This document shows, in pieces, positions 1 through 42,471 of a stretch of DNA of 64,000 nucleotides; position 1 is the stretch's first letter, and the number at the start of each line of letters is the position of its first letter. The DNA comes from Algoriphagus sp. (lineage in GTDB: Bacteria > Bacteroidota > Bacteroidia > Cytophagales > Cyclobacteriaceae), in assembly GCF_024305035.1 (NCBI RefSeq), contig NZ_JAMWZB010000023.1, positions 1-64,000 on the forward strand. The letters run 5' to 3'. The notes below the pieces were generated by a model. That model did not search any database. It had not been told where the DNA came from and saw nothing but the letters and a program-made list of their open reading frames with translations. A program made the translations under genes and the position numbers.

Positions 1-100
1 TGCTCGATTTCATCTGTTTATAATTTGTTTTTTAGCCATCAGATGGAATCTCGCAACTAATCATCCCCGTGTGTGATGGCCACATCATGCTCGATTTCAT
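1..100 (-). repeat. ATGAAA-bounded dispersed repeat, one full unit plus start of a second
   Basis: Read on the minus strand, a unit begins at base 100 with ATGAAATCGAGCA and runs 87 bases to base 14, where ATGAAATCGAGCA starts again at bases 13-1 and leaves the window. The unit contains TTGCGAGATTCCAT, partly complementary to its first 13 bases (10 of 13 pair), so it can fold back on itself. The same unit occurs at 3288-3377, 15883-16059 and 42313-42400. Here it overlaps the end of the gldA-like gene: the stop codon TGA (99-97) lies inside the ATGAAA that opens the unit. Confidence 0.85.
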
Positions 101-1002
101 TTGGTGATTTCTCTAAATAATTCTTCCAGGTTTTTCCTTGATTGACCGAGATTAACCAAGCTTAGGTCTCGCTCTTGTAAGAGCGTCAATATAGCTTTTC
201 GGGCTTGAATCGCATTTTCAACTTGGATTCGGATTTCTCTTTTTCCTTTTTGACCATAGTGAACCTGCCCAAACTGCTCAAACCAAGCTAAGTCTAATTC
301 TTCCTCTGTCTCCAAAACTAATTGGATCTCTTGATTGGTGGTCTGAAGGTTTTCTAAGCTATCTGCCGCTAGGATTTTGCCTTTATTGATGATGACGACA
401 TCCTTGCAGATGGCTTCGACCTCCTGCATGATGTGGGTAGAGAGGATGAGTGTTTTGTCCTGAGCTACGTCCTGGATGAGTTTTCGGATATCGGCTAGCT
501 GATTGGGGTCGAGTCCGGTCGTGGGCTCATCCAAAATCACGACTTTAGGATCGTGAATGAGTGCCTTGGCCAATCCAACCCGTTGCTGATAGCCCTTGGA
601 GAGCTGTCCGATTTTTTTGTGTTGTTCCGGCCATAGTCCGGTTTTCTCAAGCATCTCCCCTAGACGACTTTTTAATTTAGCGCCGGATAGCCCATATACT
701 CCGCCTGCAAAAGTCAAAAATTCCCTTACATACATCTCTGAGTATAATGGATTTTTCTCCGGCAAATAGCCAATCAAAGGAGCTATTTTTTTGGGATGAA
801 GTAGGGCATCTTCTCCGAGAACGTTGACTTGGCCACCATCGGCGGGGACATAGCCGGTGATGATTTTCATCGTGGTGGATTTGCCTGCTCCGTTTGGACC
901 CAGAAATCCCAAAATACGCCCCGGTTTGGCAGTGAATGAGACTTCATCCAAGGCTTTTTGGGAACCGTAATTTTTACATAATAAAGAGACTTCTAAGGAC
1001 AT
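97..1002 (-). CDS. gldA: GldA-like ABC transporter ATP-binding protein
   Basis: ATPase subunit of an ABC exporter of the GldA/NatA type, 301 residues, acting at the cytoplasmic face of the inner membrane. Walker A GPNGAGKST is at residues 35-43, the signature LSKGYQQ at 134-140, Walker B VVILDEP at 154-160, and an H-loop histidine sits in the STHIMQEVE segment. The C-terminal ~80 residues form the extra domain usual for GldA-type proteins. In gliding Bacteroidota GldA works with the membrane proteins GldF and GldG; neither is in the window, so the partner and substrate are unknown and the gliding assignment rests on family resemblance. A clean promoter and a structured leader lie upstream, and the stop codon is part of a repeat unit. 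Confidence 0.8.
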   Translation of the reverse strand: MSLEVSLLCKNYGSQKALDEVSFTAKPGRILGFLGPNGAGKSTTMKIITGYVPADGGQVNVLGEDALLHPKKIAPLIGYLPEKNPLYSEMYVREFLTFAGGVYGLSGAKLKSRLGEMLEKTGLWPEQHKKIGQLSKGYQQRVGLAKALIHDPKVVILDEPTTGLDPNQLADIRKLIQDVAQDKTLILSTHIMQEVEAICKDVVIINKGKILAADSLENLQTTNQEIQLVLETEEELDLAWFEQFGQVHYGQKGKREIRIQVENAIQARKAILTLLQERDLSLVNLGQSRKNLEELFREITK

Positions 1003-3282: not shown

Positions 3283-3287
3283 TCCAG

Positions 3288-3377
3288 GTGAAATCGAGCA
3301 CGACGCGAGCGACACACAGAGGCATGACTTTCAACCCTGCGAGATTCCATGTGACCGCTAAAAAAAATTACAAACAC
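3288..3377 (+). repeat. ATGAAA-bounded dispersed repeat, single unit
   Basis: A 90-bp unit that starts GTGAAATCGAGCA (first base diverged from A), contains TGCGAGATTCCATGTGACC, and is followed by ATGAAA at 3378. It begins five bases after the SDR stop codon and reads in the same direction as that gene. It is the most diverged copy, with an altered middle segment (3301-3340). Confidence 0.8.
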
Positions 3378-3388
3378 ATGAAAAAAAA

Positions 3389-15593: not shown

Positions 15594-16472
15594 ATGAACC
15601 CAACCCTAATCCTCATCACTGGTGCCGGTAGTGGCATCGGCAAAGCTCTTGCGAACTATTTTCAGGGCTTAGGATTTTCTATGATTCTCATCGATCGCTC
15701 CGAGCAATCACACGCTGAAAATTTCTGTTCAAGAAATGCATAAGCCGGTTTCTCCTTTGATTCATGCTGCCGCCGTTTTGCAACCAGGTTTTATGACTGA
15801 TTTTGATCTATCCTCGATTGACTTTCATCTAAACATCAATGCCAAGGCATGTATGCTAGGCAGTACGTTGCTAGGTAAGGAGATGAAATCGAGCATGACT
15901 AAAGCGACACACAGCGGGATGATTAGAATTGCGAGATTCCATCCGACCACTAAAAACAAATTATAATCGGATGAAATCGAGCACGACGTACCCGTCACAC
16001 ACCGGGATGATTAAAATTGCGAGATTCCATATGACCTCTGAGAAACAAATTATAAACAGATGAAAAATCAAGAGTTTGGACATAACTATTACCATGTCTT
16101 CTTTGGCGGGCTTGGCTCCAATTCCAGGTTTGAATTTGGCTACAGCCTCCAAGTTTGCAGTTCGTGGATTTTCGATGGTCATCCCTTAGGAGCTGAAAGA
16201 TTATGGCGTGGAAGTATCATTTCTTTGTCCTGACTTGGTGGATACACCTATGCTGGATTTGCAGCTTCAGTTTTCGGATGAGGCAGCCTTGTCTTTTAGT
16301 GGCTCCTCAAAGGTTCTAAGGGTAGAAGAAGTGCGGATGCGATACTAAAACTGATGAAAAAGCCACAACCTCTGGCGTGTATCCCAAAAAGGAGAGGTTG
16401 GCTGGCTAAAATTGCCGGAAGCTGGCCCCTTAGGGCTGATGTTTTTAAGGAAAAGTTCCATCAAAAAGGATA
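15594..16472 (+). pseudogene. SDR oxidoreductase pseudogene split by two repeat units
   Basis: Remains of a short-chain dehydrogenase different from the one at 2584. The 5' piece reads MNPTLILITGAGSGIG and stops at 15743. A shifted frame then gives HAAAVLQPGF and NINAKA up to GKEMK at 15888, with roughly 40 codons missing between the pieces. At the ATGAAA encoding that MK, 177 bp of tandem repeat are inserted. After them SSLAGLAPIPG, TASKFAVRGF, a stop, ELKDYGVEVS and CPDLVDTPM continue to 16472 with a further frameshift. The catalytic YxxxK tyrosine reads as Ala. Several independent lesions show it is dead. Confidence 0.88.
15883..16059 (+). repeat. ATGAAA-bounded dispersed repeat, two tandem units
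   Basis: Unit 1 is 15883-15970 (88 bp) and unit 2 is 15971-16059 (89 bp); ATGAAA resumes at 16060. Both open with ATGAAATCGAGCA and contain TTGCGAGATTCCAT. Removing 177 bp rejoins GGTAAGGAG-ATGAAA-AATCAAGAG and restores the line of the SDR pseudogene, so this locus shows the element as an insertion at an ATGAAA. Confidence 0.88.
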
Positions 16473-16606: not shown

Positions 16607-16981
16607 ATGAATAAACCCACCGAAGCAGAATTAGAAATTCTTTCACTCCTCTGGGAGATGAAAGAAGCCAGTGTCCGGCAAGTCCACGAGCGATTGGCTG
16701 AAACTAAGGAGACCGGTTACACTACGACCTTGAAAATCATGCAAATCATGCATGCCAAAGGATTGCTGGAAAGAGATGATCAGAGTCGATCTCACATCTA
16801 TCGGGCCAAGATCAAAAAAGGGGACACTCAAAAGTCCCTGCTGAAAAATCTGATGACCACCGCTTTCGGAGGCTCTGCAAAAAATTTGGTCATGCAGGCC
16901 TTGGGTCAGGATAATCCTTCTCGTGAGGAACTGGACGAAATTCGCGCGTTTTTGGATGATTTAGAACAAAAGAAATCATGA
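16607..16981 (+). CDS. BlaI/MecI-family transcriptional repressor
   Basis: A 124-residue winged-helix repressor of the BlaI/MecI/CopY family. The N-terminal domain contains PTEAELEILSLLWE and a recognition-helix region ending TTLKIMQIMHAKGLL; the C-terminal ~45 residues form the dimerisation part, where family members are cut on induction. Its own promoter carries three palindromic operators. The stop overlaps the start of the M56 gene (ATGA), the standard arrangement of a repressor with its sensor protease. The inducing signal need not be a beta-lactam: no beta-lactamase gene is near and the partner lacks a penicillin-binding sensor domain. Confidence 0.9.
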   Translation: MNKPTEAELEILSLLWEMKEASVRQVHERLAETKETGYTTTLKIMQIMHAKGLLERDDQSRSHIYRAKIKKGDTQKSLLKNLMTTAFGGSAKNLVMQALGQDNPSREELDEIRAFLDDLEQKKS

Positions 16982-18906
16982 ATTTATTGAACGACTGGTT
17001 ACCTGAAAGTTTGCTGCAGGTCCTGGGTTGGACTTTAGTGCATTCCGTCTGGCAATGGATTGTCCTAGCCGCATTGCTCTGGGGAGGATTGAAAATCTTT
17101 GCCCACAAATCCCCGCAATTCAAATACAAGTTGGCCTTGGCAAGTCTAGGTGTCGGATTTTTGACAAGTGTGGGCACGCTATGGTACGAATTGAATTTAA
17201 ACTCCCTGAGCAGTGCTTCTCCGGTGGCTGTTTTGATCGATTGGAATAATCAATTGGGAGCTTCTGATAGCCCATCACTGCTTTCGGATTTTACCGCTAG
17301 GATAGAAAGTTTATTGCCCTTTTTGGTCAATGTCTGGTTTTTTGGGGCGGTGCTATTTTTAGTCCGTTTGTTTACCAATTTGTCAGCGGTAAGAAATCTC
17401 CGGCTCAGTAGTCAAACCAATAAAGATCAAGGACTTCAAAAATTGGTTTCGGATATTTCCTCTAAAATGGGGATGGTTCAAATTCCGCAATTGAAAATCA
17501 CCGCCGAGGGTCTTTCTCCCCTGGCCATGGGTGTATTTAAGCCGATGATTTTGATTCCGGCGGGTTTGATTTTTCAGCTTTCGCCAATGCATTTGGAAGC
17601 TATTTTGGCGCACGAACTCGCCCACATCAAGCGAAATGATTATCTGATTAACCTGATTCAGTCGATACTGGAAGTGGTGTTTTTCTACCATCCTTGCTTT
17701 TGGTGGGTCAATCAGACCGTCAAGGAGCTTCGCGAAAATGCCACGGATGACTTGGCCATTTCCTGTGGAGTAGCGCCTCGGGTGCTGGCAGAGGCATTGG
17801 CAGAAGTGCTTAATTATACGAAGGAACAAAATCCCGAACTGGCTTTGGCGGCAGCCAAAAAAAGAAATCCAACCCTAAATCGAATCCGAAGAATGCTGGG
17901 ACTTCCAGCCCAAAACTATCCACAAAACCCTATAATCACTATTCCTATGATTTTGTCTTTGATTATCAGTGCGAGCTTGATTACAGCAGCGCAGCAAGTG
18001 GACCACGAGTCCCTAAATGAAATCCTTCCCGAGATTGCTCTGGAAAATCCCATGTTGGAGGCGTTTTCCAGCATAGCTCCCCTGCAAGCTGCTATTCCAT
18101 CGGACACGACATCCGAGGAAAAGAAAAAAATCGTCGTCATCAGTAAAGAAGACGGGAATCAAGCATGGACGGATGAAAATGGAAACCAGGTGGTCATCCG
18201 TCAGCGTGGAAACAATAATTCCTTTGTATATCGGATTAATGGAGATACGCTTATCGTAAATGGTGACACTACCTTCAATTTCAGCAAAATGATGAACAAT
18301 TTCAGCAAAATGATGAAGCTGGATGAAATTCCGACGGTGGATTTTGAAGATTTTCCTGAGATCGCCATGGCACCAATGCCGCCAATGCCTCCTTTCCCGG
18401 AAGAATTTATGCCGGATTTTGATATGGATTTCTTTCCCCCTGATGCACCTTTTATTTTCGAGTTTGAAGGTGAATCACCCGGTGTGTTTTTCTTTTCAGA
18501 CACTACCAAAATGACTGCCGAAGAACGCAAAGATTGGCAGAAAAAGCATGAGGAGCGCATGAAGGAATTCAGCGAGCGAATGGCAGAAAGGTCTGCCGAA
18601 TGGAAGGAACGAATGGCGGAACTCCAAGTGCGTCAGCAGGCCCGAATGAAAGAGTGGGAAGCCGAAATGGCTCCAAAAATGAAAGAGTGGGAAGAAAAAA
18701 TGAAAGCTTGGCAAGAAGAGCAAGAGCCTCGGATGGAGGAGTTTCGGGCCAAAATGAAAGAATGGCAGGAAGCCAACGAACCGAAAATGGAGGAATTCCG
18801 AAAAAAAATGGAAGCCTGGGAAAAGGAAAATGCCGAAAAGATGGCGGAGTTTAAAAAATCACTCGAAGCCGAACTTGAAAAAATAAAGAGAGAAAAAGAT
18901 AATTAA
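16978..18906 (+). CDS. M56 (BlaR1-like) membrane metallopeptidase with helical repeat tail
   Basis: A 642-residue inner-membrane zinc peptidase and probable signal sensor for the BlaI partner. Membrane segments lie near 12-41, 52-72, 112-132 and 320-341; the zinc site is HELAH at 212-216, followed by the usual second metal region ELRENATDDLA. Beyond the last membrane segment, where BlaR1 has a penicillin-binding domain, this protein has ~300 residues without one: a Met/Pro-rich acidic patch (464-490) and, from about 512, a highly charged helix. Residues 557-628 are four exact 18-residue repeats (11+7) starting MKEW/MKAW/MEEF. The ligand is unknown. Terminator follows. Confidence 0.87.
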   Translation: MNLLNDWLPESLLQVLGWTLVHSVWQWIVLAALLWGGLKIFAHKSPQFKYKLALASLGVGFLTSVGTLWYELNLNSLSSASPVAVLIDWNNQLGASDSPSLLSDFTARIESLLPFLVNVWFFGAVLFLVRLFTNLSAVRNLRLSSQTNKDQGLQKLVSDISSKMGMVQIPQLKITAEGLSPLAMGVFKPMILIPAGLIFQLSPMHLEAILAHELAHIKRNDYLINLIQSILEVVFFYHPCFWWVNQTVKELRENATDDLAISCGVAPRVLAEALAEVLNYTKEQNPELALAAAKKRNPTLNRIRRMLGLPAQNYPQNPIITIPMILSLIISASLITAAQQVDHESLNEILPEIALENPMLEAFSSIAPLQAAIPSDTTSEEKKKIVVISKEDGNQAWTDENGNQVVIRQRGNNNSFVYRINGDTLIVNGDTTFNFSKMMNNFSKMMKLDEIPTVDFEDFPEIAMAPMPPMPPFPEEFMPDFDMDFFPPDAPFIFEFEGESPGVFFFSDTTKMTAEERKDWQKKHEERMKEFSERMAERSAEWKERMAELQVRQQARMKEWEAEMAPKMKEWEEKMKAWQEEQEPRMEEFRAKMKEWQEANEPKMEEFRKKMEAWEKENAEKMAEFKKSLEAELEKIKREKDN

Positions 18907-41242: not shown

Positions 41243-42313
41243 ATGGCCAAAAAAGACTGGTCTTGGGCCATTTTAGGACTTTTGGCCCTGGGAATTCGAT
41301 GGCTAGCCATTCGTCACCCTGAAGCTACCGAAGAAATCTATTCACACACTTTTTTTCCTGTGATCAGGAATGTGTTTGATTTGACGCTGGGAAATCTTCC
41401 TTTTCCCAGCGTCTATTTATTTATTTTCTTGATCTTTTTTTTGTTGGGGAGGTTTATCCTTCTTCTAAGAAAAAAGAACAGTTTGAAACGAAAGTCCCTG
41501 TTCACTCTTCGGGCTTTTTTGAATTTCGCAGGAGGATTGATTTTTTTCTTCTTGGTCTTGTGGGGGTATAATTACCATAGGGTGCCAGTTTTTAGACAGT
41601 TAGGGTTGGAGCCAAAAGCTTTGAATTTGGATAAACTGACCCAAGAAATTCAAATTACCCATCGATTGGCACGACAAAATCGCTATCAATTGACCAGGGA
41701 TACAATCGCCATTGAGGAGATTTTAGGCTACTCGGATTTGGAGCAGGTGGTCAGGGAAAATATGCATGAAAACTTGGAGTTGCTGGGGTTGAATTTCACA
41801 GGGAATCCTAGGACCAAACTTTTTCCTCCACCGGGATTCATGCGAAAAATGGGAATTTTAGGTATTTATTTTCCTTTTACAGGAGAAAGTTATATTGATC
41901 CCACACTTCATCCTTTAGAGCAGCCTTTTACGGTCGCTCACGAAATGGCGCACAGCTACGGAGTCACTGATGAGGGGGAAGCCAATTTCATCGCTTGGGT
42001 AATCAGTACCAATTCTCCAGATCCACTGTTACGCTATTCGGGGCATTTGAGGTTGCTGTTGTATCAGATTCGGGATTTTTACCGCATGGACTCCGAGGGG
42101 TATAAAGACTGGTTGAAAAATCTTGATATCGGAATCCGAAATGACATTCAGGCGATTCAGATGCGAACGGCACAATACCAGCCTTTTTCGATCGAACTTA
42201 GTCGAAAAACCAACGATGTGTTTTTGAAATCACAAGGTGTCAAAGCAGGAATCAATAGCTATCAACAGCTTCCCATGCTTGCCTATGCCTGGAGGGAGCG
42301 CATGAATAATTGA
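41243..42313 (+). CDS. DUF3810 membrane protein with HExxH motif
   Basis: A 356-residue protein with about three membrane segments in the first ~115 residues, followed by a soluble domain. HEMAH at 233-237 with SYGVTDEGEANFIAW directly after is a gluzincin-like zinc-peptidase signature (second glutamate in EGEAN), so a membrane-bound metalloprotease is likely, though DUF3810 is not experimentally characterised to my knowledge. The stop codon TGA lies at the start of a repeat unit. Confidence 0.82.
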   Translation: MAKKDWSWAILGLLALGIRWLAIRHPEATEEIYSHTFFPVIRNVFDLTLGNLPFPSVYLFIFLIFFLLGRFILLLRKKNSLKRKSLFTLRAFLNFAGGLIFFFLVLWGYNYHRVPVFRQLGLEPKALNLDKLTQEIQITHRLARQNRYQLTRDTIAIEEILGYSDLEQVVRENMHENLELLGLNFTGNPRTKLFPPPGFMRKMGILGIYFPFTGESYIDPTLHPLEQPFTVAHEMAHSYGVTDEGEANFIAWVISTNSPDPLLRYSGHLRLLLYQIRDFYRMDSEGYKDWLKNLDIGIRNDIQAIQMRTAQYQPFSIELSRKTNDVFLKSQGVKAGINSYQQLPMLAYAWRERMNN

Positions 42314-42400
42314 TGAAATCGAGCACGACGTACCCGTCACACACCGGGATGATTAGAATTGCGAGATTCCATGTGACCTTTGAAAATCAATTATAAACAC
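42313..42400 (+). repeat. ATGAAA-bounded dispersed repeat, single unit
   Basis: An 88-bp unit from ATGAAATCGAGCA (42313) to just before ATGAAA at 42401. The middle contains CCCG-TCACACAC-CGGG, a short stem that is also present in the second unit at 15971. The last base of the DUF3810 stop codon is the first base of the unit, and both read in the same direction. Confidence 0.87.
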
Positions 42401-42471
42401 ATGAAATAACCTGAGGTATTTTTGGATTGGTAGTTACCTGTCTATATTTTTAGCTAAAATATCAAATTATC

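Follow-up and report, generated by a model that had tools for sequence, protein, structure and literature searches.

In a stretch of Algoriphagus sp. DNA, a decayed gene of the short-chain dehydrogenase (SDR) type is interrupted by 177 nt of repeated sequence, and this locus raises the question of what entered the gene and by which means. We analyzed it within the whole 64,000-nt stretch (contig NZ_JAMWZB010000023.1; the window), which is contig C16 of a genome designated G000; all other G numbers denote relatives. The first-pass annotation of this DNA had placed a 177-bp double unit at the ATGAAA coding for Met-Lys of the SDR protein and had stated that its removal rejoins the SDR reading line. 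Both statements stand. The insert carries (A)TGAAA on either side, and removal of one repeat period leaves a single ATGAAA. The features of the locus are:

15594..16472, + strand: decayed, interrupted SDR gene, delineated by homologue alignment and Pfam.
15884..16060, + strand: 177-nt insert of two head-to-tail mobile units with ATGAAA on both borders; its position is ambiguous within the shared ATGAAA.
15882..15976, + strand: unit 1 including the flanking GATGAAA; its stem P3, CATCCG/CGGATG, is a compensated pair.
15970..16065, + strand: unit 2 including the flanking GATGAAA; it shares 98% identity with the copies G000:C28:31370 and C8:20183.

Pfam analysis recognized adh_short in the N-terminal piece of the SDR gene (E 1e-6) and, weakly and below the curated cut-off, in the C-terminal piece (4e-4); the middle piece gave no Pfam match. 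All three pieces align to an intact homologue of 266 amino acids (adh_short, 6e-40). When intact relatives were inspected for a single ATGAAA at the site, as the first-pass annotation had proposed, all seven homologous loci examined (from 14 relatives with a match) proved to be uninterrupted; they read GKEMK, GREMK, GRVMK or GRAMK at this point, with the codons ATGAAA in four and ATGAAG in three of them. Two caveats apply: the homologues are just 45-54% identical over the SDR middle piece, which leaves orthology unproven, and no SDR gene occupies the syntenic interval in G060, the nearest relative in the comparison. Apart from the insert, the gene has suffered frameshifts (one of them after the insert), an in-frame TAG and the replacement by Ala of a Tyr present in the homologues, which we take to be the Tyr of the YxxxK motif. 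These lesions had been described correctly, but the deletion previously put at about 40 codons actually comprises about 25 codons (49 nt vs 41 codons in the homologues). We have very little doubt that a mobile unit inserted into this gene. Units 1 and 2 are 84% identical, and unit 2 shares 98% identity with copies elsewhere in the genome; since the two neighbours are less alike than unit 2 and its distant copies, two separate arrivals would appear likelier than a simple local duplication.

The unit is a miniature, non-coding, dispersed mobile element of about 88-92 nt. By covariance model we found at least 134 copies in the genome of the window, a lower bound because 150 of 2169 first-look candidates were scored, and 52 were found by DNA search; with 134 model matches genome-wide, the repeat in the SDR gene is not a product of chance. 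The 134 units form 88 arrays, of which 61 are single, 13 double and 11 triple; two hold four units and one holds six. DNA matches were present in 23 of the 58 genomes drawn, and model matches, under stricter filters, in 15 of 194 genomes drawn evenly across the order (the own genome is included in both counts); 113 units were found in G014. An exact-pattern scan of public genomes returned 107 stretches. Among the 80 listed, Algoriphagus titles predominate, accompanied by Pleomorphovibrio, Cyclobacterium, Lunatibacter, Lunatimonas and Aquiflexum, a few metagenome-assembled genomes labelled at the family or order level, and one title of Flavobacteriaceae. Further units occur in other Cyclobacteriaceae and, thinly spread, in the order. 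The unit was not found in viral contigs (pattern scan), plasmids or phages, and no description of the repeat was found among the titles and starts of abstracts listed, a coverage outside which most subscription journals fall.

The unit inserts as a whole unit at TGAAA. In G023, an otherwise open gene, of glyoxalase type by eye, contains two units of 91 and 89 nt, each at TGAAA, and the frame is open throughout once the flanks are joined. Such independent insertions, together with the uninterrupted SDR homologues, uphold the earlier claim that the element moves into coding DNA. Empty sites were also sought in G060, in a comparison covering 400 kb and 13 arrays or array halves with a placed flank, several sites being too diverged to read. 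The window itself contributes three units in addition to those in the SDR gene:

8..101, - strand: unit at the window edge, at the same TGAAA site as C47:24-122.
3287..3383, + strand: single unit, 4 nt past the stop of a 232-aa open reading frame (ORF).
42312..42406, + strand: single unit at the stop codon of ORF 41243-42313.

In G060, one unbroken CGAAATGAAAAGTC stands in place of the array that is split in G000 between the left edge of the window (8-101) and C47:24-122, and at this empty site the stop of one gene overlaps the start of the next. At C15:38073, G060 is free of units and shows a single ATGAAA start codon; where G000 has two units, at C67:34673, G060 has one. The unit at 42312..42406 is absent at the corresponding place in G060, where the site has diverged, and site 3287 is occupied there by unrelated sequence. 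Host sequence varies left of TG at the left border and right of ATGA at the right border. In G058, all eight fetched sequence-identical units (eight of the nine with that score were taken) are each preceded by 30 nt in which the tail of a different unit can be recognized by eye; in two of these cases (L244, L248) the resident unit was also scored by the model. Because these identical units stand behind the tails of different units, local duplication is hard to invoke. As to the assembly, contigs C16 and C47 both break inside one repeat array (window 8-101; L155), and since the flanks of the two array halves are adjacent in G060, the contigs are neighbours.

Units strongly prefer start codons. 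Among the 83 arrays inspected (of 88), 40 end exactly on the start codon of an ORF of at least 100 codons, or 41 if CTG is allowed; the remaining 43 lie in mixed orientation relative to their neighbours. The expected share is 13% (p 1e-14) under a simple null: of 594 eligible TGAAA sites, 78 coincide with starts and the other 516 are intergenic. These sites were counted in 464 kb, made up of the window and of 20 stretches picked to surround non-start arrays. Counted by unit on the named contigs, with 80 of 110 model hits taken in, 36 of 74 scorable units are start-linked, the non-linked ones including inner units of arrays. For the hits picked across the order, 18 of 21 array ends coincide with ORF starts (15/18 outside the genus); one of these 18 ORFs has 56 codons (ribosomal protein L34 by eye), and each of the remaining 17 extends over 100 codons or more. 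The idea that start-linked copies are older was ruled out, since their nearest-neighbour similarity is no different from that of the other copies (median 0.88 vs 0.92, p 0.48). Individual genes also recur next to units: units at L141 4363-4456 and L151 4662-4760, from two families of the order, precede the start of apparently the same gene (phosphosulfolactate synthase-like by eye), and units at L018 and L313, in the genome of the window and in Algoriphagus resistens, sit at the start codon of a coaD-like gene (by eye).

The unit has a conserved single-strand fold, the last stem of which pairs the right-end ATG. We drew its stems P1, P2 and P3 by hand; in unit 2 of the SDR insert, two of them read as follows:

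15973..15978 (5' arm, GAAATC) and 16023-16028 (3' arm, GATTCC), + strand: stem P1.
16028..16033 (5' arm, CATATG) and 16057-16062 (3' arm, CAGATG, right-end ATG included), + strand: stem P3.

Stems P1-P3 are kept in 88.6% of cells. Five measures were used to set the fold against shuffling, two of which fail, as detailed below; by contrast, 25 double-change cells were counted vs 9.5 +/- 2.2 in shuffled data (0 of 500), and the covariation score was 0.086 vs 0.037 (0 of 500). For the second unit type (11 sequences), RNAalifold found P1, P2 and P3 unaided, with compensatory change in 5 of 21 pairs. Within P3, the N of CATNTG pairs with the N' of CAN'ATG in 75 of 89 scored units on the named contigs (shuffled mean 40; 0 of 5000; 17 of 106 distinct units were unscorable), and likewise in all 13 divergent units that could be scored (2 of 5000), out of a set of 14 that included two from the genus. 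The commonest single combination, in a pool of this genome and its relatives from which 11 units were unscorable, is a mismatch of A opposite G (43/108); the same unpaired A and G face each other at N/N' in unit 2 of the SDR gene, a position that covaries across the genus. Folded singly, the two SDR units do not stand out (z -1.3 and -1.1). Several relatives have extra hairpins within the unit loops, for example of the CCTGCCTGAGGCAGACAGGC types, that leave the stems undisturbed (L069, L072, L075, L244-L260).

A candidate for the enzyme that moves the units came from the array at C7:91740 of G000, behind which lies an intact IS110-family gene encoding 414 aa. Its protein matches DEDD_Tnp_IS110 with 100.8 bits and Transposase_20 with 88.1 bits, both above the cut-offs, and NCBIfam NF033542 ('IS110 family RNA-guided transposase') with 282 bits; the domains were scored on the G000 copy, and the copies in G129 and G235 were judged by identity to it. 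A motif scan of 112 loci for split unit halves had recognized no long element between them and had missed this transposon. Its termini are unit-like in three genomes of the genus, G000, G129 and G235. In G000, the upstream DNA starts TGAAATATCCATGACGGGAGCGCGACACACAGGGGGATGATTAT, which is near unit sequence, and the downstream end of the element, AAAAAACAATTATAAACAGATGAAA, meets the start of a 95-aa ORF; the left end and the unit are alike, by eye, in the start TGAAAT and in the core ACACACAGGGGGATGATTAT. The right-hand resemblance extends to the SDR locus:

16041..16065, + strand: right end of unit 2; over 25 nt it shares 96% identity with the IS110 right end of G235.

At least seven right ends of a near-identical IS110 element are present in G235. 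All six that were fetched are identical up to ATGAAA and then continue into six different ORFs at their start, three of 148, 194 and 209 aa and three open for >500 codons. The copy in G129 is frameshifted; it has these ends too, and an ORF of 43 codons comes after it. At one further locus, L041 (G000:C16:86516-86611), a unit splits a small gene upstream of a PIN-domain-toxin-like gene (by eye); the small gene is uninterrupted in G060 (L227), and the contig end falls there within the apparent left end of another IS110 copy.

According to the parts of PMC11208160 and PMC11187229 that concern them, the guide RNAs of the IS110/IS1111 elements (bridge RNA or seekRNA) possess loops that match the element end and the target. 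The right-end non-coding stretch of the Algoriphagus transposon, about 200 nt long and conserved in the three genomes, contains two guide-like loops, AGATGAAA in G000 and G129 and ACATGAAA in G235. Before ATGAAA, the element itself ends in CAG in G000 and G129, and in CAC in G235; the loop bases before ATGAAA are G and G where the right end has G, and C and C where it has C, and they sit in an otherwise nearly invariant stretch. At the single left flank seen in each of these genomes, the base before ATGAAA matches the loop base as well. Judged from these few independent states, the loops appear to covary with their own end and target in the manner of a guide RNA. A related IS110 element of G014, with 55-57% identity over its start, lacks ATGAAA in its loops (the second is GTAGAAAAAAC). 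Its six fetched right ends all read CAGAAAAAAAA and pass into hairpins that resemble terminators (L426, L431, L437, L442, L446, L451); these copies end at the A-tracts preceding the hairpins. The greater length of the right end suggests that the transposon belongs to the IS1111 side of the family.

We consider the units to be best explained as non-autonomous relatives of this IS110 transposon that are moved in IS110 fashion, and we give this explanation a probability of roughly two in three. Units and transposon have a common target, TGAAA, often in start codons, for the former and ATGAAA for the latter, a start codon in each of the six fetched G235 copies. The units may be mobilized in trans by the IS110 enzyme. 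The recombinase, guided by an RNA whose loops spell (N)ATGAAA, would pick a genomic (N)ATG/AAA site, to which the junction of the element's closed circle (...ACANATG/AAATC...) would be joined; a single crossover inside the shared letters would leave TGAAA at both borders. The variation of host sequence left of TG and right of ATGA is as expected if one crossover joins circle to target. The right end of an inserted unit would be a new target, and since each inserted right end re-creates the target, head-to-tail arrays would build up, the SDR insert representing two such events. Insertions at start codons would survive because the gene keeps an ATG behind an A-rich leader from the unit, and insertions inside genes, as in the SDR gene, would rarely be kept because the gene is killed.

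It is possible, if rather doubtful, that the unit of about 90 nt is in itself a minimal guide-RNA gene, whose folded transcript, bearing its own right end and ATGAAA, is used in trans by the IS110 recombinase. Such a unit would be the smallest RNA-guided mobile element known to us. Its target would in effect be the bacterial start codon; each jump would add a ready leader, and the stem holding the new start codon might control the gene.

Several observations weigh against the IS110 explanation of the units. Seven unit-rich genomes (at least 16 unit matches: G016, G019, G023, G039, G045, G048, G060) have no transposase match at E 1e-3, and G058, despite its identical young unit copies, has only distant matches (<=37%); the sole unit-type end in its fetched IS110 loci is an ordinary nearby unit (L409). 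The sequence shared by unit and transposon is short, with about 25 nt on the right and a loose core on the left, and the loop covariation rests on two states that possibly reflect one event. The fold of the IS110 right end is weakly better than shuffles (z -2.0, -2.2, -0.6), and that of the left end is no better (z 0.3). For the units, the counts of double-change pairs (4 vs 2.8 shuffled; 85 of 500) and of pair types (12 vs 11 shuffled; 176 of 500) fail to beat shuffling, and RNAalifold recovered P1 alone for the main unit type (39 sequences), lengthened onto the left ATG and with no compensated pair.

Some of these observations would also suit the closest competitor, an improbable one, in which the units are an unrelated repeat family and IS110 merely targets units or unit ends. 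IS110-type elements are known to target repeats (parts of PMC5896051 and PMC11208160), the one left flank of IS110 seen in each of G000, G129 and G235 is a complete unit, and the seven unit-rich genomes have no match to this IS110. What speaks for the units as IS110 relatives is the right-end stretch before ATGAAA: in G235 it is identical in all six fetched copies although these abut six different genes. It therefore travels with IS110, since remnants of different units would vary, and IS110 in addition begins with a unit-like left end.

Much less probable is that the unit is primarily a cis-acting RNA, a riboswitch or start-codon switch spread by recombination, whose CAU pairs either the left AUG or the right AUG, the start of the next gene. 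The start-codon linkage fits this, including the order-wide count given above, as does the conserved fold that places the start codon in P3. However, about half of the arrays in this genome lie off starts and in mixed orientation to their neighbours, units have inserted inside genes (the SDR gene; G023), the downstream genes have no common function by eye, and no Rfam match exceeds the threshold (none at all in the window; four at three loci with E up to 5, none above the gathering score). Within the part of the motif table that was compared, nothing in a catalogue of 104 candidate structured RNAs (PMC2864571) could be equated with the unit. Cis-acting RNA may be a secondary role of the units.

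We regard as slightly more remote still an element of IS200/IS605 or REP type, moved by a Y1 (HUH) single-strand transposase with guide bases pairing both TGAAA borders. The TTCCA of the unit can indeed pair with both borders (in P1 and P3), like the IS200/IS605 guides treated in part of PMC8266576, and Y1 transposases occur in 37 of 40 genomes of the genus. Yet a model scan of 50 Y1 loci, from sets of 31 and 20 with one locus in common, revealed a clear unit next to just one of them, antisense to the gene and at its 3' end, and in no case did units border both sides; G014, with its wealth of units, has no Y1 match, and the two Y1 copies of G000 itself are broken, with no unit nearby. Nor is there a strand bias in G000, where, among 25 non-start arrays, 11 follow GC skew and 14 oppose it. 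In G009, the 3' end of one Y1 transposase gene carries an antisense unit (L208 2665-2763). A replication-strand bias had been hinted at by G058 (15 of 20 regions agree by eye, inseparable from gene direction) and was dropped as it is absent in G000. A peptide-coding unit was rejected because the frame is not conserved among unit types, though many read ATGAAA... for 20-30 codons.

Elsewhere in the window, two short 21-bp tandem repeats (18276-18317 and 18675-18717) are found in a long ORF (16978-18906).

The Algoriphagus transposon resembles the IS110/IS1111 elements in the sections of PMC11208160 and PMC11187229 considered here by its DEDD plus Transposase_20 protein, its long non-coding end, loop letters that match its own end and target, and a fixed short target. 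It differs from those described there in having ATGAAA as this target, which is a start codon in each of the six G235 copies fetched, and in the accompanying swarm of non-coding units of about 90 nt. A term search of the main text of both papers found neither 'MITE' nor 'non-autonomous', and 'start codon' once, in the methods; PMC11187229 reports natural reprogramming of IS110 elements as well as an engineered 'mini IS'. The nearest parallel in arrangement comes from Coxiella burnetii, in which, according to PMC5896051, IS1111 targets QMITE2/REP sequences. There, too, a short dispersed non-coding element is linked to IS1111-type copies, but IS1111 inserts into QMITE2, whereas the unit-like ends in Algoriphagus are the termini of IS110 itself. 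Like the REP/REPIN sequences with TnpA_REP (PMC8266576, in part), the units are high-copy, structured, mostly intergenic miniature mobile DNA; unlike these, they have no Y1 partner found, form no simple palindrome, measure about 90 nt and are arranged in head-to-tail arrays. The TAACTGA direct repeats of Beggiatoaceae, Cyanobacteria and some Bacteroidetes, as portrayed in part of PMC4679880, likewise form arrays just before start codons, with occasional copies in ORFs and no gene-function pattern, but are 7 nt long and without known partner. Set beside these systems, the units present a folded repeat of high copy number that seeks start codons in a marine bacterial family and would be tied to the IS110 bridge-RNA recombinases, enzymes that now serve as programmable DNA tools. 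The transposons would offer a natural case of guide and target changing together, from ATGAAA preceded by G or C to A-tracts at terminator-like sites, and the units a possible natural miniature substrate as well as a testable case of a mobile element that spares its host by re-creating the start codon at its landing site.
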